Source: Ignavibacteriales bacterium
GTDB lineage: Bacteria; Bacteroidota; Ignavibacteria; Ignavibacteriales; Ignavibacteriaceae
DNA: 64,000 bases
Reading direction: 5' to 3'
Assembly: GCA_015709675.1 (NCBI GenBank)
Contig: CP054182.1
Span: 1,467,448 to 1,531,447 of the forward strand
Below are positions 3,746 to 19,308 of this stretch, piece by piece (position 1 is the stretch's first letter; every line of letters starts with the position of its first letter). The notes under the pieces are model-generated. The model was not told the origin of the DNA, searched no databases, and saw nothing but the letters and a program-made list of their open reading frames with translations. The position numbers and the translations under genes were made by a program.

Positions 3746-4526
3746 GAAACATATATATACAGGAGCGCTGCTCCTGATGCTGCTTGGGCTTCAGCCGGGC
3801 TGCGTTCCCTCAAAACCTGTGGATGAGGTTGAAATCCTTGCTGCCGACCGTCTCGTGGTAAAACTGGAAGCAAACCGGAGAAAGATTAAATCATTCGAAG
3901 GAAACGGAACAATTTCGGTGGAGTCCCCTCAGTTCAGCAATAGTGCATCATTCCGTGTGATTGTCGCAAAGCCGGACTCTGTCTTCCTGGCGATAAATGG
4001 TCCTTTTGGCATTGAACTGGCCACAGCATTAATTACTAAAAAGAATTTTCAGTTTTATAACGCCATGGGTAACACGCTTTACCGCGGTGAGACAAATAAT
4101 GATATACTCAGAGAGATTTTTCGTGTCAATATCAGTTTTACTGATCTGATGGATGCGCTTGTCGGCTCGGTCAATCTTACAGAGCGGTTATACAAAACTC
4201 CTGATGATTACCACTATAATCAGAATCAGTATGAAATTTCCTATAATGATGCTGAAAGTGAAAGCCGGATTTCATATGTAGTAGATATGAGAGATCTTGG
4301 AATACGCGAATTTGTTATCAATAGCAGAGACGGCAATGAACTCCTGAAAGGGATTTACAGCAGTTTTAAACTTTTCGAGCAGGTTCCTGTTCCTGAAAAG
4401 ATCAGGGTGATAAATAAAAAAGACCGGCAGGAAATTACCATCGAATATGATGAGATGAAGGTTAACCAGCCCGGCGCGGGAATACAGTTCAGCTATCCGG
4501 AAGATGCTGATATAGTTGATCTGTGA
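3738..4526 (+). CDS. DUF4292 family lipoprotein
   Basis: This 262-residue protein has a lipobox ending at Cys22 (LGLQPGC), then a beta-rich body starting with a charged helix around 'ANRRKIKSFEGNGTISVE'. This matches the DUF4292 family, which is structurally related to the LolA/LolB lipoprotein-carrier fold by general knowledge. Such proteins sit in the FCB-group envelope and may handle lipids or lipoproteins. The start is a TTG inside the upstream gene, since no ATG or GTG precedes the signal peptide, giving an 8-nt overlap. The 3' end overlaps the next gene by 4 nt (GTGA). The family call is fairly confident; the function is unproven. Confidence 0.75.
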   Translation: MIKKHIYTGALLLMLLGLQPGCVPSKPVDEVEILAADRLVVKLEANRRKIKSFEGNGTISVESPQFSNSASFRVIVAKPDSVFLAINGPFGIELATALITKKNFQFYNAMGNTLYRGETNNDILREIFRVNISFTDLMDALVGSVNLTERLYKTPDDYHYNQNQYEISYNDAESESRISYVVDMRDLGIREFVINSRDGNELLKGIYSSFKLFEQVPVPEKIRVINKKDRQEITIEYDEMKVNQPGAGIQFSYPEDADIVDL

Positions 4527-5809
4527 TAAGAATGGTATTCTTCTTTCTCATTCTTCTGCTGGCGGGGGGAAGTACTTCTGCTCAGTCAGTTGATGCCAAA
4601 AAGCAGGAACTTGACTCTCTCCGGTCACTTATCAAAGTAACTGAGACGGAGCTCCGTCAGAAGCAGAAGCAGGAAAAAGAGACGCTCAGTACCATTGAAC
4701 TCTATACAAAGCAAGGTTATTTGCTGAATAAACTGGTTGCTGAGCTCGGCGGGGAAATAAAGAATAAAACCCAGGCGATTGAACTCCTTTCGCAGCAAAG
4801 TGTAAGAATAGCTGCCCGGATTGACTCCCTCAGAGACCGTTACCGCAGCTATGTGGTCACAGTTTATAAAGGTATTCCGGATAACAAGTGGGTGTATATA
4901 TTTTCATCCTCTTCCCTTACGGAGGCCGCATACCGTTACCATGTTCTTAGGCGGGTTACACGTTCAGGAAAACTGCTGCTCGCCGGGCTTGAGCAGGAGC
5001 AGAAAAATCTGAGTTCAATTTCCTCCCGTCTGGCTGATGAAGTGAAGCTGAAAGAGACTTTTCTCACTGACAGGAGCAATGAAGAGAAGGAGCTGAAAGA
5101 AAAAATAAAAGAACGGAAAACACTTCTCGCGAAGATAAAAAAGGATAATGCCGCCCTTAAGAAAGATCTTGAGACCAGGAAGCAGAATGAAAAACTGATT
5201 GCGCAGCTTATTGACAAACTGATCGCCGCGGAAGCAAAACGGAAAAGGGAGCGTGAAGAGGAACTTGCACGGAAAAAGAAGGAAGAAGAGTTAGCGGCTA
5301 AAAAGAATACTGAGAAAAAACCGGATACCAAACCAAAGGAAACCATTACCCAAAAGCCGGTTCCGGAAGAAAAACCTGACTATTACAATCTGCCGGGGAA
5401 CACGGAATTCACAAAACTCAAAGGGAAGATGATGTGGCCGGTGAAGCAGGGGACAATTATCAGAAAGTTTGGCGAGAACAGAAACGAAAAGCTGAAAACC
5501 GTTACGCTTAATTATGGTATTGATATACAAAGCAGAGCCGCTGCCGATGTGATGTCAGTGCATGACGGAGTGGTTTCCGTGATTGACTGGCTTCCGGGTT
5601 ACGGAAGCGTGGTTATCATCTCCCACTCGCAGGACTACCGCACGGTTTACGGGCATATGAATAATATAAGCGTAAAAGAAGGAGAGAAAGTAAAAAAGGG
5701 TACAGTTCTGGGCAACGTGGGAGAAAGCGCGGAGGGTTATATACTTCACTTTCAGGTGTGGAATGACCGCAGCAACCAGAATCCCGAGCTCTGGCTGGCA
5801 AAAAGGTAA
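4523..5809 (+). CDS. EnvC-like murein hydrolase activator with degenerate M23/LytM domain
   Basis: This 428-residue exported protein has a signal peptide (about 1-20), a long coiled coil (about 24-270, rich in K/E/Q/L) and a C-terminal LytM/M23 domain (about 310-425). In active M23 peptidases zinc is bound by HxxxD and the second His of HxH. Here the first motif reads NYGID (N330, D334), and the HxH position reads I407-L-H409. One zinc ligand and the catalytic His are therefore missing. The same degeneracy is known for EnvC, which activates amidases instead of cutting peptidoglycan. The start is GTG at 4523, overlapping the preceding stop; ATG at codon 4 is possible. It is probably periplasmic and acts in cell separation. 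Confidence 0.85.
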   Translation: MIRMVFFFLILLLAGGSTSAQSVDAKKQELDSLRSLIKVTETELRQKQKQEKETLSTIELYTKQGYLLNKLVAELGGEIKNKTQAIELLSQQSVRIAARIDSLRDRYRSYVVTVYKGIPDNKWVYIFSSSSLTEAAYRYHVLRRVTRSGKLLLAGLEQEQKNLSSISSRLADEVKLKETFLTDRSNEEKELKEKIKERKTLLAKIKKDNAALKKDLETRKQNEKLIAQLIDKLIAAEAKRKREREEELARKKKEEELAAKKNTEKKPDTKPKETITQKPVPEEKPDYYNLPGNTEFTKLKGKMMWPVKQGTIIRKFGENRNEKLKTVTLNYGIDIQSRAAADVMSVHDGVVSVIDWLPGYGSVVIISHSQDYRTVYGHMNNISVKEGEKVKKGTVLGNVGESAEGYILHFQVWNDRSNQNPELWLAKR

Positions 5810-5818
5810 TTTTTCTCC

Positions 5819-7045
5819 ATGGCCCGCATGAACAAAGCTTTTTCTGATTCATTTTATGTACTGCTTTCGAATATCATTGAGAAGATAGTATTCTTCCTCC
5901 TGTTCGCTGTTATGGCCCGGGGTTTTGAAAAAGAAGTATATGGTTTTGTGGTCTCTGCTTTTGCTCTGGGGAATATAGCCAGTTCATTCTTTGACTTCGG
6001 ATTTGTATTTTATTTTCAGCGTGAGGCGGCGGCCGGCAGCAGGGAGTTTTACAGCCGTCTTTACAGTGCAGTTGTGTTCCGTCTTCTTGCCTGGATGCCC
6101 TTTACCCTTATTGTAACAGGATACGGCTATTCATTAAACGGCAGCATGATATCACTTCTGCTGATAACCTCATCAGTTTTTCTCTTTGGAGTTAATAATG
6201 ATCTGAGCGCGGTGCTTTACGGACGGAAGGAATATAAAAAATCAGTAATCTTTCTTGCCAAAGCCAGGGCTCTCCTGCTGATATTTTTTACCGGAGCATA
6301 TCTCTTTTCTGCAGATCCTGATCTGCTTGTAAGCAGTTTTTTTGTTTCCGGTGCGGCACATTTTCTTCTCCTGGCATCGTATGTAAGAGCGATAAGAGAG
6401 ACGCCGGCTAAATTTTCTTTTGGTGACGCCAAAACAATAATACTTCTTGCACTGCCGATGAGTCTGGGCTTTATTGCAAACTGGGTGTATGATAAAATTG
6501 ACGTCCTGGTCATAGGAAAACTCCTTGATCTTGAAAGTGTGGCTGTATATGCCACGGCCTATTCGGTTTATAAGTTACCGCAGTCGCTCGGCAACAGTAT
6601 CGTAAACCCGCTCTACTCCGCTTTTTCGTCCGATTTTGCTCTTCATGGAAGGATTAACTTCAGGAAGTATAAATGGCAGATTTATCTTTTGCTGATTTTC
6701 TCGGCGGTGATGGCGGGAGCATTTTTCTTTCTGAGTGAACTGATTATAACCTTAATATACTCTGTTAAATATATTTCCGCGGGCGGGATACTGAGTATAC
6801 TGGCATTGGGAGTCCCTTTCTTGCTGCTGAACAATGTAACAGGAATAGCACTCAATGCTATGAGAAAGGATTTACATGTTACATCCGTGGTTATGCTTGC
6901 GGGGCTGCTTAATATCGGGTTGAATCTGTATTTTCTGCCTCAATGGGGTATTATGGCAGCGGTATATGCAACTATCTTTACTGAGGGGATGATTCTGCTA
7001 TTACAGGCAGTGATTATCTTTACCGTACTCAGGAAACATCCATGA
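5819..7045 (+). CDS. Polysaccharide flippase (Wzx/MATE-like, oligosaccharide flippase family)
   Basis: This 408-residue polytopic protein has about 12 predicted transmembrane segments and the N-terminal pattern of Wzx-type flippases (FSDSFYVLLSNIIEKIVFFL, then MARGFEKEVYGFVVSAFALG). Members move undecaprenyl-linked oligosaccharides across the inner membrane. The internal DVLVIGKLLDLESVAVYATA stretch is typical of the second half. It begins 9 nt after the EnvC-like gene and overlaps the next glycosyltransferase by 4 nt, making it the head of the glycan operon. The lipid-linked substrate is presumably assembled by the five downstream glycosyltransferases. Confidence 0.88.
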   Translation: MARMNKAFSDSFYVLLSNIIEKIVFFLLFAVMARGFEKEVYGFVVSAFALGNIASSFFDFGFVFYFQREAAAGSREFYSRLYSAVVFRLLAWMPFTLIVTGYGYSLNGSMISLLLITSSVFLFGVNNDLSAVLYGRKEYKKSVIFLAKARALLLIFFTGAYLFSADPDLLVSSFFVSGAAHFLLLASYVRAIRETPAKFSFGDAKTIILLALPMSLGFIANWVYDKIDVLVIGKLLDLESVAVYATAYSVYKLPQSLGNSIVNPLYSAFSSDFALHGRINFRKYKWQIYLLLIFSAVMAGAFFFLSELIITLIYSVKYISAGGILSILALGVPFLLLNNVTGIALNAMRKDLHVTSVVMLAGLLNIGLNLYFLPQWGIMAAVYATIFTEGMILLLQAVIIFTVLRKHP

Positions 7046-8121
7046 GAGTTGTCTTAACCGGAATATATAATGCATCTGATATCCGCACAGGACCTGAAGA
7101 GGTTGCTGTCTCCGTATTCCGCGAGATGCAGAAGATGGCAGAAACTTTCTTTTTAACAAAGTTTTCAATGCTCAAGCCCCATTCATTCTGGCAGAAATTG
7201 TTTGGACTTAAACAGGAGGGGAACCTTTATTACTGCGGATTTTTGCGGATGCCCTTTCTGGTGAAAAAGTTAAATCCGGATATCATTCATGGAATAAATT
7301 ACCATCCGTTTGTGGGGTTGTTTTTCCTATTGTTTTCCGGAAGTAAAACCAGATTATGTTATACCGTTCATGGTGTGGTTGCCTATGAAAACAGCCGTAA
7401 GAAATATTTGACGGCATATTTCAGATTTTCACGGAGAGTTACTGAATACCTTGTTTTCAGATATGCCAAAACGGTATATCTGCTTACAGAATATACCAAG
7501 AAGCAAATTCTGGACTACTATCGGAAATCGGAAGCAGAGTATATTTATACCATTAACGGAATAGATCCTGAAACCAGGAACGCGGGTACCCCGATGAGAT
7601 TCCAGGAAAAAAAAATGCGTATAGCTGCTGTGGCCGGACTAATGGACAGAATTTACGGAATTGAAATTTTGTTTGACGCCCTGATTGGGACAGGGATCGA
7701 ATTTGAACTGAAAATCTTCGGAGAGACCGAGCACCTGATCGTTCCAGCACCGTTAAGGGGTAAAGTAAAAATAATTGCAAAAGTATCTCATAAGGATTTT
7801 ATTGAAGAACTCAGATCAACAGATTTATATGTCTGCTTATCTTTGTTTGAAACGTTTTCGATTTCGACCGCGGAGGCAATGGCCTGCGGATGTGCTGTAC
7901 TGGTATCAGACAAGGCGGGTATAAGTAATTACATAACGCATAATGAAAATGGTTTGATTGCTTCTCCGGAGAATCCTTCTGAAATTAGAAAACTGATACT
8001 GCATTATTACGAAAACCAGGAAGAACTCATGAAGATAGGAGCAGCTGCAAGGTCTCTGTCTGAAATGTTCACCTGGGGTAAAGTGGTTCGGGATTATATA
8101 TCCGGATATAAAATGGTTTAA
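7042..8121 (+). CDS. Glycosyltransferase family 4
   Basis: This 359-residue GT-B enzyme belongs to the GT4 retaining glycosyltransferases. The C-terminal nucleotide-sugar site is visible as an E-x7-E-type motif in SLFETFSISTAEAMACGCAV (about residues 268-290), followed by VSDKAGISNYI. The N-terminal half contains NPDIIHGINYHP, a strand pattern usual for the acceptor domain. The gene overlaps the flippase by 4 nt, and the next GT4 begins 3 nt after its stop. It probably adds one sugar to a lipid-linked oligosaccharide at the cytoplasmic face. Donor and acceptor cannot be read from the sequence. Confidence 0.88.
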   Translation: MRVVLTGIYNASDIRTGPEEVAVSVFREMQKMAETFFLTKFSMLKPHSFWQKLFGLKQEGNLYYCGFLRMPFLVKKLNPDIIHGINYHPFVGLFFLLFSGSKTRLCYTVHGVVAYENSRKKYLTAYFRFSRRVTEYLVFRYAKTVYLLTEYTKKQILDYYRKSEAEYIYTINGIDPETRNAGTPMRFQEKKMRIAAVAGLMDRIYGIEILFDALIGTGIEFELKIFGETEHLIVPAPLRGKVKIIAKVSHKDFIEELRSTDLYVCLSLFETFSISTAEAMACGCAVLVSDKAGISNYITHNENGLIASPENPSEIRKLILHYYENQEELMKIGAAARSLSEMFTWGKVVRDYISGYKMV

Positions 8122-8124
8122 GAT

Positions 8125-9192
8125 ATGCCGGATAAAAAATTATTCATTCTGGTGAACAGGTTAAATATAACCTGCGGGGTATCATCACATCTCTTTTATT
8201 TCCTTCAGGCAATGGGTGATTTTGCCAAAGATAATATCATCCTAATCACGGGGGGCGGGAATGCTGTGATGAAATATGAAGTTCTTGTCCGGCAGGTAAT
8301 TGTATTGCCGGAACTACAGCATGAAACCAGAAGTGGTGCAGGGTTTTTAAAAGGAATTGTCAGACTACGAAAGTTCATCAAAACATATAAACCTGCAATT
8401 ATTCACTCGCATCATTTTTATTCGGCAAATATGGCTGCGTATGCATCAGTTGGATTGGGTATTTATCGTATTCAGACGGTGCACGCTCTGATACCTCCGG
8501 AAGGATGGCTGAAGCATTATAATGCGGATACTTATATCGCCGTAAACGAGCATATCCTTGGGGGAATGATGAATTCACAAATTAATCCTTCTTCAGTAGA
8601 GTTAATAAGATGCGGTTATCATTTTAAGAGGGTAACCCGCAGAACTTCTGCGGAGGGACTTAAAGTAATAACTGCCTCACGCCTTATCCGGGATAAAGGA
8701 ATTGATGTATTGATAGCTGCTGTGAGACTGCTTGGCAAAGACGCGGACCTGTTTTCGTTTACTGTTGCTGGTTCCGGCAGGGATGAAAAAGAATTCAGGA
8801 AACAGGCTGAGGGTTTGCCTGTTACGTTTATTGGTGAAGTATCAGATTTGCCCGGTAGACTGGAGGAGTATGATATTCTGGTAAATCCAACCCGTTCTAA
8901 GATGGAAGGCTTTCCCACAATAATCATTCAGGCAGCAGCGCAAATGCTGGCTGTTATTTCTACAAGATTTTTTGGTTACCAGAGCCGGCTGAATGACGAC
9001 AATTCTCTGCTTACAGATATTGATGATGCTGCCGGGGTAGCTTCAGCTCTCATGATACTGCACGAAGACAGGGAATATCTTCAGCAGAAACAGCATCGGA
9101 TCTTTGAAGAATTTCAAAAAGATTTTGAATTATCAGGTACTTTAGAACAGACGAAGAAGCTTTACATTAAATGCGGAGGCATTACATGGTAA
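8125..9192 (+). CDS. Glycosyltransferase family 4
   Basis: This 355-residue GT-B fold protein contains KPAIIHSHHFYSANMAAYA in the N-terminal domain and ASRLIRDKGIDVLIAAVRLL, the GT4 nucleotide-binding stretch. The C-terminal E-x7-E region reads KMEGFPTIIIQAAAQMLAVI, where the second acidic residue of the usual motif is replaced by Gln. This is the only odd point. The protein starts with a strand reading LVNRLNITCGVSSHLFYFLQ, also found in the third GT4 of the operon (10130), so the two may be old paralogues. The gene overlaps the start of the GT2 gene by 7 nt. Confidence 0.86.
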   Translation: MPDKKLFILVNRLNITCGVSSHLFYFLQAMGDFAKDNIILITGGGNAVMKYEVLVRQVIVLPELQHETRSGAGFLKGIVRLRKFIKTYKPAIIHSHHFYSANMAAYASVGLGIYRIQTVHALIPPEGWLKHYNADTYIAVNEHILGGMMNSQINPSSVELIRCGYHFKRVTRRTSAEGLKVITASRLIRDKGIDVLIAAVRLLGKDADLFSFTVAGSGRDEKEFRKQAEGLPVTFIGEVSDLPGRLEEYDILVNPTRSKMEGFPTIIIQAAAQMLAVISTRFFGYQSRLNDDNSLLTDIDDAAGVASALMILHEDREYLQQKQHRIFEEFQKDFELSGTLEQTKKLYIKCGGITW

Positions 9193-10133
9193 CTGTTCTG
9201 TTGCCAACATATAATGCTGAAAAGTATATCGCGCAGTGTATAAAAAGCATACTTAATCAAACGTACCGGGATTTTGAATTACTCATTATTGACTCTGCCT
9301 CGGATGATAATACCGTAAAGATTATAAAATCCTTTGAAGATCCCCGGATTAATCTGCATCAGATTGAGCGCTGCCCGCTTGGAAGGTCGCTAAACTACGG
9401 ACTTAAAAATGCAAAGTTCGACCTTATAGCAAGAATGGATGCAGATGACCTGATGGTACCAGAACGGCTTGAAGTACAGTTAGCCTATCTGAAAGTGCAT
9501 CCTGAAGTTGATGTGCTGTCGTGCAACTCAGCATATTTTTATAATAGTCGGATTCTCCATTTAATAAAATTGCCACTAAAAGATAAAGAAATTAAGGAAC
9601 TAATGCTACTCCACAATCCGATGTGTCACCCGGGAATTATTTTTAAGAGAGACTTTATTCGGCAACATGGTGGCTTTTCGACAGATTATCAGATTTGTCA
9701 GGACTATGAATTATGGATGCGATTGAAGAATTTTGCTAAATTCTCTAATGTGGAGAGAATTTTAGTTTTTTTAAGATTCAACAAATTGTCTCTTTCAAGA
9801 AAATCCAGGGAAATCACAAAATCTGAGGTCTATAAGTTGCATAATGATTATTCCTCACATAAGAACGTGGAAGAATTAAGCAATTCAATCAAGATTAATC
9901 TTCAAGGCTGGAGAGAATTGTTTTATGGTGACAGAATTCAAGCAAGAAAACACTTTGTCACCAACTTAAATTCAGCTAAAGTATGTATCGCTTTCCTTCT
10001 AACATTTCTCTCTCAGAGTAAGATTGATTTGCTGTTGGAGCGGAATTTATTTGCGCGCTTAAAGTATGTTATACATTATTTTGATCCCGAGATGGTAGGG
10101 ATCCGTCACACTTTAAAGCAGCTTCTGAAATGA
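9186..10133 (+). CDS. Glycosyltransferase family 2
   Basis: This GT-A fold inverting glycosyltransferase has about 315 residues. Beginning with MVTVLLPTYNAEKYI, it carries LLIIDSASDDNTVKI and the metal-binding DADD motif (residues 85-88, ARMDADDLM); FSTDYQICQDYELWMRL holds the ED/QD catalytic-base region. I prefer ATG 9186 over the in-frame ATG at 9171. A GGAGG sequence lies just upstream of 9186, and the family normally starts directly with the first beta strand. From about 9480 onward, base composition becomes more AT-rich than in the flanking genes. The gene overlaps the next gene by 4 nt. Donor sugar unknown. Confidence 0.88.
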   Translation: MVTVLLPTYNAEKYIAQCIKSILNQTYRDFELLIIDSASDDNTVKIIKSFEDPRINLHQIERCPLGRSLNYGLKNAKFDLIARMDADDLMVPERLEVQLAYLKVHPEVDVLSCNSAYFYNSRILHLIKLPLKDKEIKELMLLHNPMCHPGIIFKRDFIRQHGGFSTDYQICQDYELWMRLKNFAKFSNVERILVFLRFNKLSLSRKSREITKSEVYKLHNDYSSHKNVEELSNSIKINLQGWRELFYGDRIQARKHFVTNLNSAKVCIAFLLTFLSQSKIDLLLERNLFARLKYVIHYFDPEMVGIRHTLKQLLK

Positions 10134-11200
10134 CTTCAGGTAAAGTAACCAAGGTTTTGCATTTGCAGACATCCTTGAATTTAACTTGCGGAATTACGCG
10201 TTATCTCCAAAGTTTGCACAATAATCACGTGGATGAATTTCATATGACTGTTCTCTGTTATGATGGTGATGCAGTTGAGAATCTGCGTGAAAACGGAGTT
10301 GATGTTAAGTTATTCAATTCCTCTTTAACCTGGTACTATCTTTTATCGAATCTTCTTCAAATTATTAGAATTGTTAAAAATTCGAACATTTCTATTATCC
10401 ATAGTCATCATAGATGGCTTGATGTTCTTGGTTCAATTTCTGCGAAACTATGCGGTATTAGTTCTATTATGACCTGCCACAGTATAGTTTCAGGCAAGAA
10501 ATTTCTGAGTTATAGGTCGGATAGAATTATTGCCGTAAGCTCTGCGGTTTATACCAACCTTACAGAATACTTTGGAGTTAATTCTTCACGAATTATATTG
10601 CTTCGGAATGGTATTGATCCCTCAGTTTATAAAAAGGATAATCTTTCTTATACGGGAATAAAGAATAACGCTATAGGATTTGTTGGACGATTAACCAGAG
10701 ATAAAGGATTCGACATTTTTCTTTCTATCGGTGAAAGAATCTTAGAAATTAACTCCGAAATTAAATTAATTATTGCTGGTGATGGTGAACTCAAAGAAGC
10801 TATATCCAGTTTGTCAAGAAGGTATCCTTCGCAAGTTATTTACAAAGGGGTGGTTAAGAATATTGAGTCAGTATACAGTGAGATAAGTTTTTTGATCATG
10901 CCTTCTGAACTTGACTCATTTCCTTATGTAGTTTTGGAGGCTGGACTTTTCTCGCTGGTTGTGATCGCATCTTCGACAGGGGGGATACCTGAAATAATTG
11001 AAGATGGTATTGATGGCCGGTTAATAGGTACCCGAACTCCGGATGACTTCTTTAAGGAAGTGTTGTATGTGTTAAATAATCGTGCGGTTGCTGAAAGATG
11101 GTCTGTTAATCTATTTAAGAAAGTTTCGCAGAATTTTTCTTTCTCGTCCCATGCAAGAAAATTAGAATCTATTTATAAGAAGCTAAATGTTTTTAAATGA
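10130..11200 (+). CDS. Glycosyltransferase family 4
   Basis: This 356-residue GT-B enzyme has SIIHSHHRWLDVLGSISAKL in the acceptor domain, AIGFVGRLTRDKGFDIFLSI in the donor domain, and MPSELDSFPYVVLEAGLFS as the E-x7-E region, followed by ASSTGGIPEIIEDG. It starts in a 4-nt overlap with the GT2 gene and overlaps the WecG/TagA gene by 14 nt. This gene and the end of the previous one are distinctly AT-rich, which suggests that the variable core of the polysaccharide cluster was acquired separately from its ends. It resembles the GT4 at 8125 in its N-terminal LNLTCGI motif. Confidence 0.88.
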   Translation: MTSGKVTKVLHLQTSLNLTCGITRYLQSLHNNHVDEFHMTVLCYDGDAVENLRENGVDVKLFNSSLTWYYLLSNLLQIIRIVKNSNISIIHSHHRWLDVLGSISAKLCGISSIMTCHSIVSGKKFLSYRSDRIIAVSSAVYTNLTEYFGVNSSRIILLRNGIDPSVYKKDNLSYTGIKNNAIGFVGRLTRDKGFDIFLSIGERILEINSEIKLIIAGDGELKEAISSLSRRYPSQVIYKGVVKNIESVYSEISFLIMPSELDSFPYVVLEAGLFSLVVIASSTGGIPEIIEDGIDGRLIGTRTPDDFFKEVLYVLNNRAVAERWSVNLFKKVSQNFSFSSHARKLESIYKKLNVFK

Positions 11201-11909
11201 CGTTTTAGGATTTTCCGTATACGGGGTTGACAATAGAATATTGATGAAAACAATTTGTAATGCAATTGATACTTATGAGAAGACCTGTATTACATACGTA
11301 ACCGCTGCCAACTGCATCATCTACAAAAGAGATTTAAGCTACAGTGTTGCCCTCAGGAAATTTTCGATAATCCACCCAGATGGAATAGGCATTTATCTGG
11401 CGCAGAGGTTTTTGTATCCTGATGAGAGATGGAACCGAATGACCGGTTCGGATTTTTACCCGATTTTGGCTGAAAAAGCCATTGAAAAGCAATGGTCTCT
11501 ATTTATTTTTGGAGATAAAAAAGAGACATTAGAGAGTATTCCCAAAAGATATCCAAAATTAAAGATTGCCGGAATGCACTCCGGTTTCGGTTTTCCCGAT
11601 AATCTTTCGGAGGATATTTCCGCCTCAAAACCGGATTTGGTACTGGTCGGACTGGGGGTGCCAATGCAGGAAAAGTGGATCTCAGATAATTGGGAGAGAC
11701 TCCCCTCAGCTGTTTACTTAGCCGTAGGCGATGGACTCAAGGTACTTTCGGGTACGAAAAGAAGGGGAGGAAAATTTATCCAAAAAGCCGGTCTTGAATG
11801 GGTGGTTCGGCTTTTGTCAGAACCTTTCCGGCTCTGGAAGCGTTACCTGATATGGATGCCCGTTTTTATTATTTTGGTGGTATTGCAAAAATTTCAGAGG
11901 AAAAAGTGA
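11187..11909 (+). CDS. WecG/TagA/CpsF family glycosyltransferase
   Basis: This 240-residue protein has the WecG/TagA (GT26) signature. Visible motifs are TYVTAANCIIYKR, HPDGIGI with the conserved catalytic Asp65, RMTGSDFYP, and DLVLVGLGVPMQEKWISD. Family members transfer N-acetylmannosaminuronate or N-acetylmannosamine to a lipid-linked N-acetylglucosamine, normally an early step in building enterobacterial common antigen, wall teichoic acid linkage units or similar glycans. The C-terminal basic and hydrophobic stretch (about 205-240) is the membrane-association tail of the family. Its stop codon overlaps the GTG start of the giant C25 peptidase gene (GTGA), so the two are translationally coupled. 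Confidence 0.9.
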   Translation: MFLNDVLGFSVYGVDNRILMKTICNAIDTYEKTCITYVTAANCIIYKRDLSYSVALRKFSIIHPDGIGIYLAQRFLYPDERWNRMTGSDFYPILAEKAIEKQWSLFIFGDKKETLESIPKRYPKLKIAGMHSGFGFPDNLSEDISASKPDLVLVGLGVPMQEKWISDNWERLPSAVYLAVGDGLKVLSGTKRRGGKFIQKAGLEWVVRLLSEPFRLWKRYLIWMPVFIILVVLQKFQRKK

Positions 11910-14900
11910 ATAAATTCTATAACATACTTTTAGTTTTTCTAATTTGTCCGTTGATGTATGCAGCGGAGAATGATCCGGTTAAGATTTCTTTGCATGAAGG
12001 TGGTTTTGCGCTTACCTTTAGTAAAATGTCTTATGCAGTAACAGTTTCCGCAGAAGGGAAATATTCTATACGGGAATACACTGAGACAAACGATTATTCA
12101 AAACCGGGCAGTCCGTGCCTTCCCAAATTATCATACACTATAGCTTTGCCATCGGATAAAAAACCGCTTGTCAGTTTTTTGCCGGGAACTTCTTCTGAAT
12201 ATACAAATACCATCCCTGCTTTTTATCCAAATCTTAAAGCTTTGGGCGACACGGCATATACCTCAGAAAAAATTTTTATGCCGGAATCAGCTTCTTTTTC
12301 TATTGAACCCAGAGTAATTATTTCGAATGTATACCGTTTCCGCGATTATTATTGTGCAGATATAACAGTTTTTCCTGTTGAATACTTCCCTCACGAAAAC
12401 AGGATAGTTGAGCACCATGATTTTCAGATTAACATAGCAGTTGAGGGACTACTTAATCATCCGATACAGCGCATTGAATCTGTCTCCGGGTTCGATGAGT
12501 TTGCCTCTTCAGTAATAGCCAACAGTGAATTTGCCGGCGGATTCCGGATTACTTCGCCCCGGGTCTTGACTGATACAACCGGCAGCTGGATAAATTTTGG
12601 CGGCACATACCTTAAGTTTAAGGTTGGTAAGGATGGCGTCTATCGCATTACACCGGCCGATTTATCATCCCTTGGGGTAAGCACTTCAGGCATCAATCCA
12701 AATACTTTTCAGCTTTATACATCAGGGAGGGAGTATCCCGTATATGTAAAAGGAGAAGCGGATAATTCGTTTGATGCAGCTGATTATATAGAATTTACCG
12801 CGACACGAAATTATAACAAGGATTATCGTAAACCCAATACTCAGAATGATATGTATGTTGATTATCTGAACAAATATTCAGACTCAACAGTATTCTTCCT
12901 TACCTGGGGAGGGAGCAACGGCAAAAGAATAATCGAGAAATCAACCGAACCGGGATTATCTGATACGGTTTTGCACTATACGTATTTTGAGCATCGTGAA
13001 ACAAACTCATTTTTTCAGCAGCTTGGTGTAAATGTAGTTGATAATCAGAATCCTGAGTTTATGCCTTTTAAGTCTTTTGTGTGGGGATGGATATTTCCAG
13101 GTACGCTGCAGCAAACATTTACCACAGCCGATTTGATTCCCGGAAAACTTGCCTCGGTTTTTTTTAAGGCAGTATCTGTTGGATCTCCGGTGACTACCAA
13201 TTCTCATAATATAGCTGTTAAAATCAACGGTATTAGTATAGACACACAGGTGGTCAACAGGAACGATGTTGTGGTGGCAGGGGGATATTTTAACTCATCA
13301 TTGCTGAGCAGCGGAACGAATAATTTCGGTTTCACTAATTATGCCAACGGTCTGAACCCGAATTTTTTCTCTTATGACTGGACAGAATTCGAGTATCCGC
13401 GTGCGTTAAAAGCAATAAATGATTCACTTACTTTCAGAATCCGCGATACATTTGCTCTTCAGTCACGCCTGCTGAAAATTGAAAATGTTACTTCATCAGA
13501 TATTGTTCTTTACAGACACGGGACATCCCCAAAGAGATTTTCGGGATTTCAGTATACGGGGGGAGCAATCCTTATATCCGACACCGTATCATATTCAGAT
13601 GAATACTACCTTGTAAGGAGTGACAACACGCTGAAGCCAAAATTTGAGTATGTGAAGCAATTCAGAAATCTCAGGTCAGATTTGGTTAATTACCAGTATA
13701 TTGCAGTCACTCATCCGTCCCTGCTCTCATCCGCAACGGAATACACCTCATTTATCAGAGAGGAATACAATACGGAAGCCGGGTTATTCCTGACAACAGA
13801 TATTTTTGATGAATTCAGTTACGGTTATCCTGATCCAGAAGGTTTAAAGAGTTTTCTTAACCATCACGCGCGTAAGTCAGTTCCACAGGCACTTGATTAC
13901 GTAACCCTTATCGGTTCGGCAAGTTACGATTTCAACCGGTATGTATATAATATCAGAGGTATAGAAGTAAACGCAAATCTGGTTCCGTCTTATGGTGAAC
14001 CTGTCAGTGATACGTGGTACGCAATGCTGGATTCAGGGTCCTATATGCAGCATTTTTATATCGGAAGACTGCCCGCCAAATCAAATGATGATGTTGTTAA
14101 TTATCTGAACAAACACAGGAACTATATTAACCAGAGGTATGATCAGTGGAACAAACGGGCATTGTTCTTCTCATCCGGAGACGGGAATAACGAACCGGAA
14201 CTCCTTGAAATAAGGCGTTCTAATCAGTTTATCATAGATAATTATACAAATATCAATCCGTTCAATCTGGCGTATGATCATTTTTACAAGACAGTAACAC
14301 CCCCTACGGATTTCGGACCTTATCCTCCGTCCTATATCAGAAGTTCAATAGCCGAGGGCGGGTTATTTATTTCCTATCTCGGACATTCGGGAACCAGAAC
14401 ATGGGATAATTCAATTTCTGACCCGGACCATTTGCGGAATAAGTATAGCAAAAGCCCGCTTGTTACTGACTTTGGATGTTCCACAAATAAATTTGCTGAA
14501 CCTGATGTTGAGGCCTTTGGTGCGCTCTTTATTAATGAGGGGCAGTCAATTGGGTATATAGGCAATTCGTCCCTTGGTTTTTCATCAACAACGCTGAACG
14601 TGTCTAAATATTTTTACGAATCAATATTAAAAGACAGTATAACCAATCTGGGAAGAATGCACGCTGAGTCAAAACGGAAAATGTTTAACCGGCTTGGCTC
14701 CACAGGAGTATATAAGGTATTCGCGCTTACCAATCTTCTTTCAGGTGACCCGATTGTAAAGCTGGCTTTGCCGACAAAACCCAATCTGTTTCAGAGCAGC
14801 AGTCAGATGTATCAGATTACACAGTTTCCCGATGAGCAGGGTGATTCAGTTTCTTTTCTCCTTGTCTATAATAATCTGGGAACCGTTCCGGCAGATACTT

Positions 14901-17227
14901 TTTCGGTTCGTATCTCGTACTTTTATAACGATACACTTGCAGGGCAATTTTTGTATAAGAAGAGTGTTCCTGTACTCAATGATTCTATAACTTTTGCGGT
15001 TGTATCCAAAAACCGGCCAGGAGAGCACAGGATCGAATCTGTACTTGATATCTATGGCAGTGTGGATGAAATTTATGAAGATGATAATGTGCTTACGTTT
15101 AATTATTTTGTGGCATCCCGGTCAGTAAAACCGCTAAGTTCAGGTGAGTTTTTAGGATTCACGAGTCCCGCTGTCCGGACACTAAATACTACTTTTTCAT
15201 CAGGGGCTTCCTCAATGCTCTTGCAGTATGATACTGTTCCGGCTTTTACCTCTTCCAGTTTCTGTCAGTCACCATTGGATACTTTTTTCACATCATTCAA
15301 TCTTGCAGAACTTTTATCCGGAAAACGGTATTGGCACCGCAGCGGTATTGTGACAGATGATACCCTCTGGAGTTCGGCAGCATCATTTTATATCGGAGAT
15401 AAGAATGCAGATTTTCTCCTGGAAGACGCTTATAGTTATAGCCAGCAGTCTCTCTCGGGGCTGAATTTTAGCAGCGGACTCAGGCTTAATATTGATACGC
15501 TGAAGTATGAAATAATTTCAGGAGGTGGGAATTTCAGTAAATTCGGAAGTATTACTTTAAATGGAGTGAACCTGCTGAGCAATACTTTTGGATGGGGAAT
15601 GGGGTTTGCGGTAATTGATTCAATTACGCTAGCGGTTGATACTGCTAAAACTTTTAATTATGGATTTGATGTCAATGAAGCAAATGCAATGGCTCAGTTG
15701 ATTGAGAATCTCCCTAATGGAAAATATGTTGCATTATGTGTCATTGATGACGGAAGCAGTAATCTTGTTTCTCGTTTGAGAACTGCCATAAGAACGCTTG
15801 GTTCAGTAAAGATAAACAATCTGGCATTCCGCACACCTTTTGTTTTATTCGGACGCAAGGGAGCGGAACCGGGAACGGTTTTTGAGCGAATTGAATCTGC
15901 CAACTTTACGAATTTGCTGTCATTTGACACTACTTTCTACAAGGGGCAGGAAAGCGGATCAATTACAACACAGAAGATTTCATCAGGCAGAAAGTGGATT
16001 AATGTAGTCAACAATTCAAGTTTAGCCCCCGGTTCCTCACTCATGTTTACCGGATATGGGATTAAAGTTGACGGCACTAAGGATTCTCTGTTTAGTTTTA
16101 CGGGAGCGGTTACGGATTTTCCGTTGAGCGGTATTAATCCGGATGTATATCCGCAACTGCAGATAAGGGCTGACTTCACCGCCGCACCGGATGGTTCTTC
16201 TCCTGTTCTTGAGTATCTCGGTGTGAACTGGGATGATCTGCCCGAAGTTGGTTTGAATTATCAGACCGTCTCTCTGGCCAAAGATACACTGCGCATCGGA
16301 GAACCGGCACCAATCAATATAACTGTTGCCAATGCCGGCGGGGCTGTGAGTGATACTTTTTATGTGGCTGTTGTTATCCGCTTTCAGGATAATTCAACCG
16401 ATACGGTTTCTCATTTCCCGGTTTATGGTATCGGGGATGGAGAAAGAAAAAAGTTCGTTATCAATTATTCCGGTTCAATAGGTCCACAAAACAGAGTGCT
16501 TCAGGTAACGGTTGATTCAAAGAATTCTCTTAAAGAAGTTTATGAGGATAACAACGTCTTCAGTATCCCGTTTTATATAGAGCCGGATACCACTCAGCCG
16601 TATATAACAATCAGGCAGGACGGCAGGGATTTCTTCGAAGGGGAACTGCTCCCGGCAAATCCTGAGTTCGAAATCGGACTTTATGATGCGTCCCTGCTGC
16701 CGGTAACTGACCCGGCATCTATTAAGCTTTATCTTAATGATGAACCAGTCGCTTATGAAGCAGGGGTGCTCGAAGCGGTTTACAGTACTGCAAATCCGAA
16801 GATGAAACTCGTGTATACGCCATCCCTTTCCTCCGGAGCGTATTCGCTGAAGATTGAGGCAAAAGATGCTATCGGAAATCCGGTTGTTCAGGGCTCTGAG
16901 ACGAGATCTTTTGTCATTTCTGATGAACTGCGGATTGCCGATCTTTATGCATATCCAAATCCCTCATCCGGCGATTTGCATTTTACCTTTATGCTCGGAC
17001 GTATTCCCGAAGAAGCCGAAATTCAGGTATTTACTGTTGCCGGAAGACTGGTAAGAACGATAAAACTGACGGCAGTAGATTTAAAGTACGATTTTAACCG
17101 GATTTATTTTGACGGACGCGATCAGGATGGCGACCCGCTGGCAAGCGGCACGTATCTTTACACCATGAAAATAAAATCTGGCGGTAAGACGGAGCGCACA
17201 ACCAAAAAACTGGCCATCGTCAGATAG
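11906..17227 (+). CDS. C25 gingipain-like peptidase with T9SS sorting domain (PorU-like)
   Basis: I start this protein at GTG 11906 (about 1773 residues). AGAGG lies 5 nt upstream, a signal peptide follows at once (NILLVFLICPLMYAA), and the reading frame upstream lies inside the WecG gene. The N-terminal third resembles PorU-type proteins (FKVGKDGVYRITPADL). The peptidase C25 domain holds the catalytic pair His827 (YLGHSG) and Cys858 (DFGCSTN). CARDB-like adhesive domains follow (around LRIGEPAPINITVANAGG), then a FlgD-like/T9SS C-terminal domain (YAYPNPSSGDLHF to KKLAIVR). PorU is the sortase that removes T9SS signals and joins cargo to anionic LPS. Whether this is PorU itself or a secreted paralogue is open, because the T9SS-like C-terminus is unusual for PorU. 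Confidence 0.85.
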   Translation: MNKFYNILLVFLICPLMYAAENDPVKISLHEGGFALTFSKMSYAVTVSAEGKYSIREYTETNDYSKPGSPCLPKLSYTIALPSDKKPLVSFLPGTSSEYTNTIPAFYPNLKALGDTAYTSEKIFMPESASFSIEPRVIISNVYRFRDYYCADITVFPVEYFPHENRIVEHHDFQINIAVEGLLNHPIQRIESVSGFDEFASSVIANSEFAGGFRITSPRVLTDTTGSWINFGGTYLKFKVGKDGVYRITPADLSSLGVSTSGINPNTFQLYTSGREYPVYVKGEADNSFDAADYIEFTATRNYNKDYRKPNTQNDMYVDYLNKYSDSTVFFLTWGGSNGKRIIEKSTEPGLSDTVLHYTYFEHRETNSFFQQLGVNVVDNQNPEFMPFKSFVWGWIFPGTLQQTFTTADLIPGKLASVFFKAVSVGSPVTTNSHNIAVKINGISIDTQVVNRNDVVVAGGYFNSSLLSSGTNNFGFTNYANGLNPNFFSYDWTEFEYPRALKAINDSLTFRIRDTFALQSRLLKIENVTSSDIVLYRHGTSPKRFSGFQYTGGAILISDTVSYSDEYYLVRSDNTLKPKFEYVKQFRNLRSDLVNYQYIAVTHPSLLSSATEYTSFIREEYNTEAGLFLTTDIFDEFSYGYPDPEGLKSFLNHHARKSVPQALDYVTLIGSASYDFNRYVYNIRGIEVNANLVPSYGEPVSDTWYAMLDSGSYMQHFYIGRLPAKSNDDVVNYLNKHRNYINQRYDQWNKRALFFSSGDGNNEPELLEIRRSNQFIIDNYTNINPFNLAYDHFYKTVTPPTDFGPYPPSYIRSSIAEGGLFISYLGHSGTRTWDNSISDPDHLRNKYSKSPLVTDFGCSTNKFAEPDVEAFGALFINEGQSIGYIGNSSLGFSSTTLNVSKYFYESILKDSITNLGRMHAESKRKMFNRLGSTGVYKVFALTNLLSGDPIVKLALPTKPNLFQSSSQMYQITQFPDEQGDSVSFLLVYNNLGTVPADTFSVRISYFYNDTLAGQFLYKKSVPVLNDSITFAVVSKNRPGEHRIESVLDIYGSVDEIYEDDNVLTFNYFVASRSVKPLSSGEFLGFTSPAVRTLNTTFSSGASSMLLQYDTVPAFTSSSFCQSPLDTFFTSFNLAELLSGKRYWHRSGIVTDDTLWSSAASFYIGDKNADFLLEDAYSYSQQSLSGLNFSSGLRLNIDTLKYEIISGGGNFSKFGSITLNGVNLLSNTFGWGMGFAVIDSITLAVDTAKTFNYGFDVNEANAMAQLIENLPNGKYVALCVIDDGSSNLVSRLRTAIRTLGSVKINNLAFRTPFVLFGRKGAEPGTVFERIESANFTNLLSFDTTFYKGQESGSITTQKISSGRKWINVVNNSSLAPGSSLMFTGYGIKVDGTKDSLFSFTGAVTDFPLSGINPDVYPQLQIRADFTAAPDGSSPVLEYLGVNWDDLPEVGLNYQTVSLAKDTLRIGEPAPINITVANAGGAVSDTFYVAVVIRFQDNSTDTVSHFPVYGIGDGERKKFVINYSGSIGPQNRVLQVTVDSKNSLKEVYEDNNVFSIPFYIEPDTTQPYITIRQDGRDFFEGELLPANPEFEIGLYDASLLPVTDPASIKLYLNDEPVAYEAGVLEAVYSTANPKMKLVYTPSLSSGAYSLKIEAKDAIGNPVVQGSETRSFVISDELRIADLYAYPNPSSGDLHFTFMLGRIPEEAEIQVFTVAGRLVRTIKLTAVDLKYDFNRIYFDGRDQDGDPLASGTYLYTMKIKSGGKTERTTKKLAIVR

Positions 17228-17296: not shown

Positions 17297-18616
17297 ATGA
17301 AATCCAAAATAGTTATTCTGGCGCTGCTTTTCTCAGCCGGCGTCTTTGCTCAGAAAACCAGCAGCGGTAATTTTACCGGCGGCGTGGGACTTAATTTTAT
17401 AGACGGAAATGCATTTTACTCATTCCGTCTGGCACCGGATCTATCAATAGGAAAGTTCGGTGTCGGGCTTGATCTCCGGCTGGATCTTGATTCCACAGGA
17501 AGCATCAGGAAGGAAAACTTTAACGAAACCTCGGACTTTCTTTCAATCATCCGGTATATACGCTACGGACAGAAAAAAGATCCTGTTTACGTAAGCGCCG
17601 GAACGCTGGATAACTATTCACTGGGTCACGGTACTATTGTAAATCAGTACAATAACAGCCCTTCTCTTGATAAAAGAAGTCTGGGTCTTGCACTGGATCT
17701 TGATTTTGAAAAGTTCGGATTTGAATCCATGTACAGCGATTTCAGCCAGGGGGGCGTACTTGGTGTTCGCGGATACGTCCGCCCGCTTCAGTATACTACG
17801 CTGGCTAAGGTCCCGCTGATCGGAAAACTTGAAGTCGGTGCATCATTTGCGTCAGACTTTAATAAATATGCCGGCGTGCTTTCGGGATATGTTGACCCGG
17901 TTACCAATGAATTCGTTGCGTTAAATGACCAGAAAGCCACACAGATTTACGGTATAGATCTCGGGCTGCCTGTAGTAAGAACATCAATTTTTAATATTGA
18001 TCTTTATGCAGATTACGCAAAGATCATGGATTTTGGCGATGGCGCATCAACCGGCGCACTTTTTACGTTCAACGGACTTGGAATGCTTTCTGCTAATGTC
18101 CGTCTTGAAAGAAGGTGGATGAATGATAAGTACCTGCCGGCATACTTTAACTCACTTTATGAGATTGAACGCTTTAAGGTTGTAGGCGGTGGCGTGGTAA
18201 GCAAGATCAAACAGCTTTCTGCTGTAACCTCAACAGACCGTGGTATATATGGCTCGCTTGCCGTGGCTGCGGCAAATCTTCTTTCTGTCTCAGGCAGTTA
18301 CCAGAGAACTGATTTTGATCCGAAAAGCGGACAACTTCATATACGCGCAGAAGTAACCAATGAGCAGCTTCCTTTTACCGTCCGTGCCGGATATGACAAG
18401 GTAAACATTGAAAATGAAGGCGCGCTCTTTACACTTGATGACCGTTCATATATGTATAGCGAAGTAGGTTACAAACCATATCCGTATCTGCTGGTCTCAA
18501 TGGTATATCACTGGACTTTTGAGCCGGTGCGTGACGGAAGCGATAACATCCTTTCTTATAAGAGCCAGAAAAGAATTGAGCCCCGGGTTTCATTTTTGAT
18601 GCCTCTGAATTTCTAA
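17297..18616 (+). CDS. Outer-membrane beta-barrel protein
   Basis: This 439-residue protein has a classical signal peptide ending at AGVFAQ and a body of alternating amphipathic strands with many Gly, Tyr and Phe residues, ending in a final strand with C-terminal Phe (SFLMPLNF), as is common for outer-membrane barrels. AAGGAG precedes the ATG at good spacing. It sits 69 nt after the C25 peptidase gene and 2 nt before the response regulator gene. I do not recognise the exact family. A role as a porin or as an outer-membrane partner of the C25 protein is possible but unproven. Confidence 0.7.
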   Translation: MKSKIVILALLFSAGVFAQKTSSGNFTGGVGLNFIDGNAFYSFRLAPDLSIGKFGVGLDLRLDLDSTGSIRKENFNETSDFLSIIRYIRYGQKKDPVYVSAGTLDNYSLGHGTIVNQYNNSPSLDKRSLGLALDLDFEKFGFESMYSDFSQGGVLGVRGYVRPLQYTTLAKVPLIGKLEVGASFASDFNKYAGVLSGYVDPVTNEFVALNDQKATQIYGIDLGLPVVRTSIFNIDLYADYAKIMDFGDGASTGALFTFNGLGMLSANVRLERRWMNDKYLPAYFNSLYEIERFKVVGGGVVSKIKQLSAVTSTDRGIYGSLAVAAANLLSVSGSYQRTDFDPKSGQLHIRAEVTNEQLPFTVRAGYDKVNIENEGALFTLDDRSYMYSEVGYKPYPYLLVSMVYHWTFEPVRDGSDNILSYKSQKRIEPRVSFLMPLNF

Positions 18617-18618
18617 AT

Positions 18619-19308
18619 ATGAAACGGATTCTGGTTGTTGATGACGAGCCGCATATGCGGCTCGGTCTTAAAGACAATCTTGAACTTGACGGATATACTG
18701 TCGAAACAGCCTCAGACGGCGAAGAAGGGCTGGCTAAGTCGCTGGAGGGGGATTATCATCTCATTCTGCTTGATGTGATGATGCCAAAAATGTCAGGGCT
18801 TGATGTCTGCAAAAAGCTTCGTGCTGCTTCGGTTCAGACTCCGGTAATTTTCCTGACTGCCCGCGGTGAAGAGATTGACAAGGTGCTGGGACTCGAGATC
18901 GGCGCTGATGACTATATTACCAAGCCATTCGGACTCCGCGAACTTCTTGCCAGGGTAAAAGCGGCGCTAAGGCGAAGCAGCGGCACGGCTAGTGATGAAG
19001 AAGAAATCTGTCAGATCGGCCACCTGCGCATTGATTTTTCCGCCTACCGCGCATCAGATAAAAAAGGAAAAGAGGTGTCTCTTTCTCATAAGGAGTTCGA
19101 GATATTGAAGTTTTTATGGGAGCAGCGCAATAAAACTGTTTCGCGTGATGATCTGTTAAATAAGGTGTGGGGATATGAAGAAACCCCGTCAACCCGCACG
19201 GTGGATAATTTTATCGTCAGGCTGCGGCAGAAAACGGAAAAAGACCCCAATCATCCGCAGATTATCCTGACGGTGCATGGTATAGGATATAAACTCATTG
19301 CAAAGTAA
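18619..19308 (+). CDS. OmpR/PhoB family response regulator
   Basis: This 229-residue protein has an N-terminal receiver domain with acidic pocket DDE (8-10), phospho-acceptor Asp52 (LLDVMMPKMSG), the switch Thr in FLTARG and conserved Lys in ITKPFG. A C-terminal winged-helix domain follows (SLSHKEFEILKFLWEQRNKTVSRDDLLNKVWG, quoted only to place it: about residues 153-184). It controls transcription upon phosphorylation. No histidine kinase is encoded nearby, so it is an orphan regulator in this window. The gene starts only 2 nt after the outer-membrane protein gene, so the two are probably co-transcribed. Its targets cannot be inferred. Confidence 0.92.
   Translation: MKRILVVDDEPHMRLGLKDNLELDGYTVETASDGEEGLAKSLEGDYHLILLDVMMPKMSGLDVCKKLRAASVQTPVIFLTARGEEIDKVLGLEIGADDYITKPFGLRELLARVKAALRRSSGTASDEEEICQIGHLRIDFSAYRASDKKGKEVSLSHKEFEILKFLWEQRNKTVSRDDLLNKVWGYEETPSTRTVDNFIVRLRQKTEKDPNHPQIILTVHGIGYKLIAK

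Follow-up and report, generated by a model that had tools for sequence, protein, structure and literature searches.

Pairing of class A C25 proteins with WecG

The subject of this analysis is a stretch of 64,000 nucleotides (hereafter the window) from an Ignavibacteriales bacterium (assembly GCA_015709675.1, contig CP054182.1, positions 1,467,448 to 1,531,447), in which the gene for a C25 peptidase-family protein of 1773 amino acids (aa) directly follows the gene for a WecG/TagA glycosyltransferase (GT). The C25 protein and its counterparts in related genomes are referred to as class A. The core finding is a conserved, largely co-inherited pairing of class A with WecG, in which the class A protein has an ILEI module built into it. 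The recurring adjacency of class A to a glycan locus, combined with a fold of sugar-binding type, suggests a second, dedicated system for anchoring proteins to sugar.

Across 116 related genomes there were 82 class A matches in 78 genomes (scoring at least 309 bits; partial matches, for example in G043, G063 and G003, and G084 were scored as absent) and 101 WecG matches in 81 genomes. WecG was located within 6 kb of 69 of the 82 class A genes, being upstream on the same strand in 51 cases, upstream on the opposite strand in 17 and downstream in one. A first-pass annotation of the window had described a PorU-like C25 enzyme tied to a glycan locus; this association was borne out, and the synteny is conserved in other Ignavibacteria, far beyond this genome. 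Class A and WecG occurred together in 74 genomes and were both missing from 31, with class A alone in four and WecG alone in seven (Fisher p = 3e-17, ignoring kinship). By genus, both were present in 40 of 54 and neither in nine, with class A alone in two and WecG alone in three. In the 12 genera where presence varied, the two agreed in 48 of 55 genomes, and among 16 low-contig genomes (1 to 60 contigs, one of them 80% complete) WecG was missing in exactly the three that lacked class A. The 13 class A genes without WecG inside 6 kb comprised four from genus g8, four near the start of a contig (G014, G015, G024 and G041, where class A begins less than 3.4 kb from the first base on the upstream side) and five others (G010, G038, G065, G066 and G069).

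Gene order was compared in 40 class A regions of 11–20 kb each; these were chosen by hand and not at random, as were the 20 regions of class B, the 16 genomes and the 40 regions from the phylum described below. In 22 regions the gene immediately upstream of class A was a same-strand WecG, with a gap of no more than 15 bp in 17 of them; eight regions had an opposite-strand WecG in that place and ten another gene. Glycan-gene labels above 30 bits, taken together with WecG, were found in 38 of 40 class A regions and in none of 15 canonical PorU regions, the labels being assigned from single sequences for class A and from single sequences plus profiles for PorU; they derive from genes of this genome, and diverged families may be missed. 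A cluster containing a UDP-galactopyranose mutase (386 bits for the one member tested) had members in 26 of the 40 class A regions.

The glycan operon and the wecG junction

In the window, class A stands at the end of a run of glycan genes:

5819..7045, + strand: Wzx-like polysaccharide flippase (PF01943 and PF13440 above cut-off)
7042..8121, + strand: GT4 glycosyltransferase (PF00534)
8125..9192, + strand: GT4 glycosyltransferase (PF13692)
9171..10133, + strand: GT2 glycosyltransferase (PF00535)
10130..11200, + strand: GT4 glycosyltransferase (PF13692)
11187..11909, + strand: WecG/TagA glycosyltransferase, GT26 (PF03808, 152 bits; TIGR00696, 117 bits, cut-off 69)
11906..11909, + strand: GTGA start/stop overlap of wecG with the C25 gene (sequence)
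11906..17227, + strand: class A PorU2-like C25 protein, 1773 aa (PF01364, 184 bits; NF052324, 346.8 bits, below its cut-off of 450; tree)

These had been described as six overlapping glycan genes (Wzx, GT4, GT4, GT2, GT4 and WecG), which was correct for four junctions, with overlaps of 4, 22, 4 and 14 bp, and incorrect for the remaining one, a gap of 3 bp. The claim that the GTG of the C25 gene overlaps the wecG stop was accurate: the TGA of wecG occupies 11907–11909 and the GTG 11906–11908, in frame to 17227. The junction, AGAGGAAAAAGTGAATAAA, combines the GTGA overlap with a Shine-Dalgarno-like GAGG, and the N-terminal residues of the C25 protein resemble a signal peptide by eye; for these three reasons the alternative ATG at 11798, which gives the longest open reading frame (ORF) and lies within wecG, is less likely. 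Joint translation of glycan synthesis and C25 enzyme, the significance first attached to this overlap, is one arrangement only, since 17 of the 69 linked WecG genes are upstream on the opposite strand and one is downstream. Short overlaps are also common in operons, and the GTGA overlap was dropped as evidence in its own right. What is conserved is the neighbourhood, not translational coupling.

When the whole genome was scanned with PF03808, the WecG of the window was the sole match. Among the ORFs of the operon no Wzy polymerase was found, and no initiating transferase lay within it. A DegT-type sugar aminotransferase was encoded elsewhere in the window (29314–30528), away from the glycan operon, and its WecE- and PseC-like scores were all below cut-off.

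Relationship of class A to PorU and PorU2

The host genome, a single contig of 4.21 Mb, contained three C25 matches: a PorU of 1326 aa, the class A protein, and a class B protein of 1909 aa. In a scan of genome contigs, the nearest relative was an Ignavibacteriaceae metagenome-assembled genome, with 75% identity over the C25 protein. The first-pass annotation had taken the class A protein for the organism's PorU, and this identity was rejected. A canonical PorU (NF033707, 972 bits, cut-off 420), followed by PorV, lies 1.14 Mb from the window C25 gene; the class A protein scored 291.3 bits against the same model, less than against the PorU2 model (NF052324, 346.8 bits, cut-off 450), and belongs to a different clade. 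A separate canonical porU was one of three observations that the annotation itself had held to count against it; the other two were not borne out, since synteny is conserved and the C25 domain did not group with the 14 other C25 peptidases when the domains were placed in a tree.

That tree was made by a quick method with a midpoint root from 131 of 135 domains, four long ones (two of class A and two of class B) having been dropped and gingipains left out. PorU formed a group of its own (15 rows, SH-aLRT 99), class B formed a separate group (SH-aLRT 100), and class A was united in a group of 82 rows (SH-aLRT 99) with PorU2-like proteins of the phylum, some of which pass the PorU2 cut-off. Fourteen other C25 peptidases of these genomes were placed apart from class A. 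Class A falls in the PorU2-like branch, distinct from PorU, class B and other C25 peptidases. The gene context differed likewise: PorV adjoined PorU in 15 of 15 PorU regions, and a PorV label stood next to class A in none of 40.

None of the 116 related genomes had an NF052324 match above 450 bits; of 296 genomes sampled from the phylum, 27 did have one, and all of these fell outside the taxonomic class of the window. In the 40 distant regions, which held 44 PorU2-like proteins, those from the same taxonomic class were mostly accompanied by WecG or other GT genes (for example in L267, L270, L271, L273–L276 and L280). A few distant genes passing the PorU2 cut-off had a weakly PorV-like gene upstream. 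A tandem pair of class A-like genes was present behind WecG in L267 and L270, which come from two genomes of genus g61, in the same taxonomic class.

Catalytic domain and ILEI module

The following parts of the class A protein could be delimited in the window:

13697..14764, + strand: C25 peptidase domain, aa 598–953, with D702, H827 and C858 (Pfam PF01364)
14384..14386, + strand: His827 codon, GHSG motif (sequence, alignments)
14477..14479, + strand: Cys858 codon, DFGCST motif (sequence, alignments)
15401..16237, + strand: jelly-roll beta-sandwich, about aa 1166–1195 and 1348–1444, split by ILEI (AlphaFold2 model)
15488..15949, + strand: ILEI/FAM3 domain, about aa 1195–1348, Pfam match 1231–1320 (PF15711, 63.5 bits)
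16280..16564, + strand: CARDB domain, aa 1459–1553 (PF07705)
16952..17197, + strand: FlgD-type, type IX secretion system (T9SS) type A C-terminal sorting domain, aa 1683–1764 (TIGR04183, 26.7 bits, cut-off 23; PF13860)

The residues D702, H827 and C858 were kept in 20 of 20 aligned members, as well as in every row of a larger alignment (39 of class A, 20 of class B and 15 of PorU), and a catalytically dead C25 domain was rejected on these grounds. The best structural match to a model of aa 200–1061 (pLDDT 90.7) was P. gingivalis PorU (6za2, E = 9e-37), with gingipains at 3e-18 at best. With a T9SS tail above the TIGR04183 cut-off and a signal peptide recognised by eye, class A has the features of a T9SS substrate or component.

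An AlphaFold2 model of aa 1062–1460 (pLDDT 91.3) consisted of a fibronectin type III (FnIII)-like domain followed by a jelly-roll that is interrupted by the ILEI domain. In structure comparison, the modelled ILEI domain resembled the stem of POMGNT1 (5ggf; Z = 19.4, root mean square deviation 2.4 over 143 residues), FAM3A, FAM3B and FAM3C (Z = 18.4–18.7) and TMEM2 (Z = 16.0). The jelly-roll resembled many folds at Z of about 10–11 (for example CBM61, 2xom, 10.6) and its matches were not specific. All 20 class A proteins scanned with PF15711 had the ILEI domain. A profile made for this analysis recovered it from 40 of the 41 class A proteins, the exception being L069, a broken gene that stops at 1155 aa, and from 28 of 44 other PorU2-like proteins, but from none of 22 class B, 15 PorU and 14 other C25 proteins.

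PMC9802357 describes binding of beta-linked N-acetylglucosamine (GlcNAc) by the POMGNT1 stem through R129, D179 and R207, and binding of GlcNAc in vitro by FAM3C and FAM3A. When these positions were mapped by alignment, with the chain numbering of the Protein Data Bank entry worked out by hand, two of the three contacts were kept in the window protein, D179 and R207 corresponding to D1281 and R1309; the latter position was R in 18 of 20 rows. The notion that ILEI substitutes for an absent PorZ was rejected, since all 16 genomes tested have PorZ, whether or not they have class A. A phylum-wide link between ILEI and glycan neighbours was also dropped: such neighbours occurred with 18 of 28 ILEI-positive and 3 of 16 ILEI-negative PorU2-like proteins, but the p value of 0.005 is uncorrected for kinship and several of the ILEI scores were weak (14–30 bits).

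Flanking genes

Further same-strand genes flank the operon on both sides, the ORFs called upstream being separated by small gaps or overlapping slightly:

1937..3745, + strand: TPR lipoprotein-like gene, which opens the upstream block (TPR Pfam families on the ORF)
3738..4526, + strand: LolB1-like outer-membrane lipoprotein insertase (NF053559, 80.9 bits, cut-off 50; DUF4292)
4523..5809, + strand: EnvC-like M23 peptidase or murein hydrolase activator (PF01551; EnvC NF008644, 75.3 bits, below its cut-off)
17297..18616, + strand: OMP439, a conserved 439-aa protein (signal peptide and beta-barrel-like by eye)
18619..19308, + strand: OmpR-type response regulator (PF00072, PF00486), 2 bp after OMP439

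The OMP439 gene begins 69 bp after the C25 gene. Its mean column identity was 62% (18 rows) against 49% for class A (20 rows), and its similarity to ImpL63 was weak (NF047543, 72.9 bits, cut-off 1000). A role for OMP439 as a PorV-like shuttle was rejected, since profile comparison gave a probability of 2.3% and the gene occurs in G018, which lacks class A.

In nine of the 40 class A regions, a protein of 219–320 aa with a signal peptide and an FnIII-like part, both recognised by eye, was encoded directly downstream of class A (L045:13023-13679, L053:3578-4240, L070:3596-4255 and six more regions). The T9SS tail was found by test in three of the nine and by eye in the rest, and in three the gene overlapped class A by 4 bp. 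This protein is a possible dedicated cargo. A profile built from eight of these proteins ranked its own eight loci first (310–323 bits, next 242), and the ninth (L049, genome G037) was not prominent in that ranking. A dedicated small cargo at every locus was rejected, such a gene being present in 9 of 40 regions only. In regions L065 and L067, class A was followed by an oxidoreductase and a sugar acetyltransferase-like gene; three of four proteins scanned there matched families, all below cut-off.

Host secretion system and class B

SprA, canonical PorU, PorV and PorZ were all found in the host genome, with PorV following PorU, and the ordinary attachment set is therefore largely present. PorU and PorZ were kept in all 16 low-contig genomes, three of which lacked class A. 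In one genome (G000), among the 150 of 252 candidates that were scored, at least 90 matched a profile of FnIII plus T9SS tail with E of 1e-30 or better, which hints at a large set of T9SS cargo. Two further features belong here:

53236..55506, - strand: canonical PorZ (NF052228, 388.8 bits, cut-off 260), not part of the glycan operon
L005:6664-12393 (genome 2984663-2990392), - strand: class B PorU-like C25 paralogue, 1909 aa, near GT4, GT2, DegT, PglC-like and PIG-L deacetylase genes

The PorZ gene is followed directly, in the same orientation, by a gene for an ABC-F family ATPase. Among 20 class B regions, glycan labels were present in 19, a PglC-like transferase in 17 and a DegT aminotransferase in 13. 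An ORF of 610–613 aa was located within two genes downstream of class B in 19 of the 20; in the two examples scanned it had SIS and glutamine-amidotransferase domains, and we take it to be GlmS-like. The idea that the middle of class B is a PorZ-like propeller was dropped, as the matches, to designed proteins and a cell surface protein that are presumably of propeller type, were weak (best E = 3e-4).

Proposed function and alternatives

To our knowledge, no linking glycan has been identified for most T9SS bacteria. For P. gingivalis, PMC8545088 describes removal of the C-terminal domain (CTD) of cargo by PorU, which couples the cargo to a linking sugar, with PorZ binding anionic lipopolysaccharide (A-LPS) and depending on it for the interaction with PorU. 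PMC13086638 reports a pentasaccharide as the linker, with a proposed assembly on undecaprenyl pyrophosphate by WbaP, GtfC, GtfF and VimF. The operon in the window fits an oligosaccharide of similar size, with four GTs, WecG and Wzx and no recognised polymerase, and class A is read as the sortase for this oligosaccharide on that basis. We hold with moderate confidence that class A is a second, PorU2-like sortase, dedicated to the oligosaccharide of its own locus, to which it would attach proteins.

Judging from the genes present, Wzx, the three GT4s, the GT2 and WecG would build and flip a short undecaprenyl-linked oligosaccharide. The signal peptide and T9SS tail of class A would take it to the cell surface, where, by analogy with PorU, the His/Cys site would cut the CTD from some T9SS cargo and hand the new C-terminus to an amine of the glycan. 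The ILEI and jelly-roll module might hold that glycan in cis, as PorZ does in trans for PorU, and the canonical PorU-PorV-PorZ set would run in parallel.

Several observations weigh against the dedicated sortase. No linking-sugar genes of Wbp or Vim type were recognised in the window operon, and the class A score lies below the NCBI cut-offs for both PorU2 and PorU. Distant PorU2 families that pass the cut-off mostly lack glycan neighbours, a glycan label being near the gene in 2 of 21 such regions. In the ILEI domain, the equivalent of POMGNT1 R129 is W1230, a variable position in the family, and the D1281 position was D in 14 of 20 rows. In genus g8, class A lies away from WecG (G008, G033 and G047) or at a contig end (G054); L072, the single g8 region scanned, had no glycan labels, its one candidate being a Polysacc_synt flippase beside class A that just exceeded the Pfam cut-off (29.2 bits, cut-off 28.2), and three further neighbours scanned with Pfam gave no family above cut-off. 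Finally, the genome counts are not independent, because many of these relatives share ancestry.

Class A could instead be a surface endopeptidase that trims or matures proteins carrying or exporting the glycan of the locus, with ILEI as a lectin and hydrolysis in place of transfer. C25 is a protease family, the structural relatives of class A include the hydrolytic gingipains, and no dedicated cargo is known, the cargo-like downstream gene being confined to nine of 40 regions. The model is nearest to PorU, class A stands apart from the 14 other C25 peptidases, and there is a host T9SS to go with the T9SS tail of class A; these points count against an endopeptidase, although none of them separates hydrolysis from transfer. 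An endopeptidase is unlikely but has a real claim to attention. Rather improbable, in our estimation, is that the locus is simply one co-regulated operon for outer-membrane biogenesis, in which LolB-like, EnvC-like, glycan, C25 and barrel-like products share no reaction. In its favour, LolB- and EnvC-like genes lie upstream in many regions (an EnvC homologue was present in 23 of 40), and OMP439 follows class A in 24 of 40 but is also found in G018 without class A. Against it, WecG and class A tend to be gained or lost together, even when WecG is on the opposite strand (17 of 69), where co-translation is impossible.

The reading of the first-pass annotation, that class A is the organism's PorU and the glycan a general cargo anchor equivalent to A-LPS, has in its favour the PorU-like fold and the intact catalytic residues. 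It is largely refuted by the canonical PorU-PorV locus, and the three genomes that keep PorU and PorZ without class A also speak against it; we regard it as very improbable.

The dedicated sortase can be extended, tentatively and with more doubt than confidence, to as many as three parallel C-terminal anchoring systems. PorU-PorV, perhaps with PorZ, would serve a general anchor; class A would serve the WecG-Wzx oligosaccharide with its ILEI domain; and class B might serve a DegT-PglC amino-sugar glycan, to which the GlmS-like neighbour would belong, with a propeller-like module in cis. If this were true, proteins would be sorted according to which sortase-glycan pair takes them.

Comparison with known systems

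Class A and the PorU of P. gingivalis (which acts with PorV, PorQ and PorZ) share the C25 domain with its His and Cys, the PorU-like domains that precede it and the T9SS tail; a glycan partner for class A is the inferred part of the likeness. Class A differs in forming a separate clade, in the addition of ILEI and a jelly-roll, in being 447 aa longer than the PorU of its host, and in being encoded with glycan genes rather than porV, in a genome where canonical PorU coexists. NF052324 (PorU2) is the best NCBIfam match and falls in the same tree group, although class A scores under its cut-off. The ILEI domain has the same fold as those of the POMGNT1 stem, FAM3 and TMEM2, but is bacterial and nested within the jelly-roll of a C25 protein.

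T9SS linking sugars vary by species: P. gingivalis and T. forsythia use seryl- or glycyl-uronic acids (PMC7468200), and Prevotella intermedia an N-alanyl deoxyhexose, the authors of the latter work noting that several pathways may exist (PMC11969387). None of the open-licence papers searched uses the name 'PorU2', though an earlier mention elsewhere is possible, and the pairing of class A with a glycan locus was not described in the titles or abstract beginnings among the matches listed, with the same proviso. Literature joining Ignavibacteria, T9SS and PorU amounted to one passage, stating that a T9SS may be present in Ignavibacteriota. The conserved pairing of a PorU-type enzyme with a glycan locus and a lectin-like fold names genes to examine in environmental bacteria.

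A further parallel is the exosortase/PEP-CTERM system, a C-terminal sorting system reportedly linked to exopolysaccharide loci. Exosortase is an unrelated membrane enzyme, in contrast to class A, which belongs to the C25 family and bears a T9SS tail; the likeness consists in C-terminal sorting tied to polysaccharide genes. The pairing of class A with its glycan locus may be the C25 counterpart of that between exosortase and exopolysaccharide.

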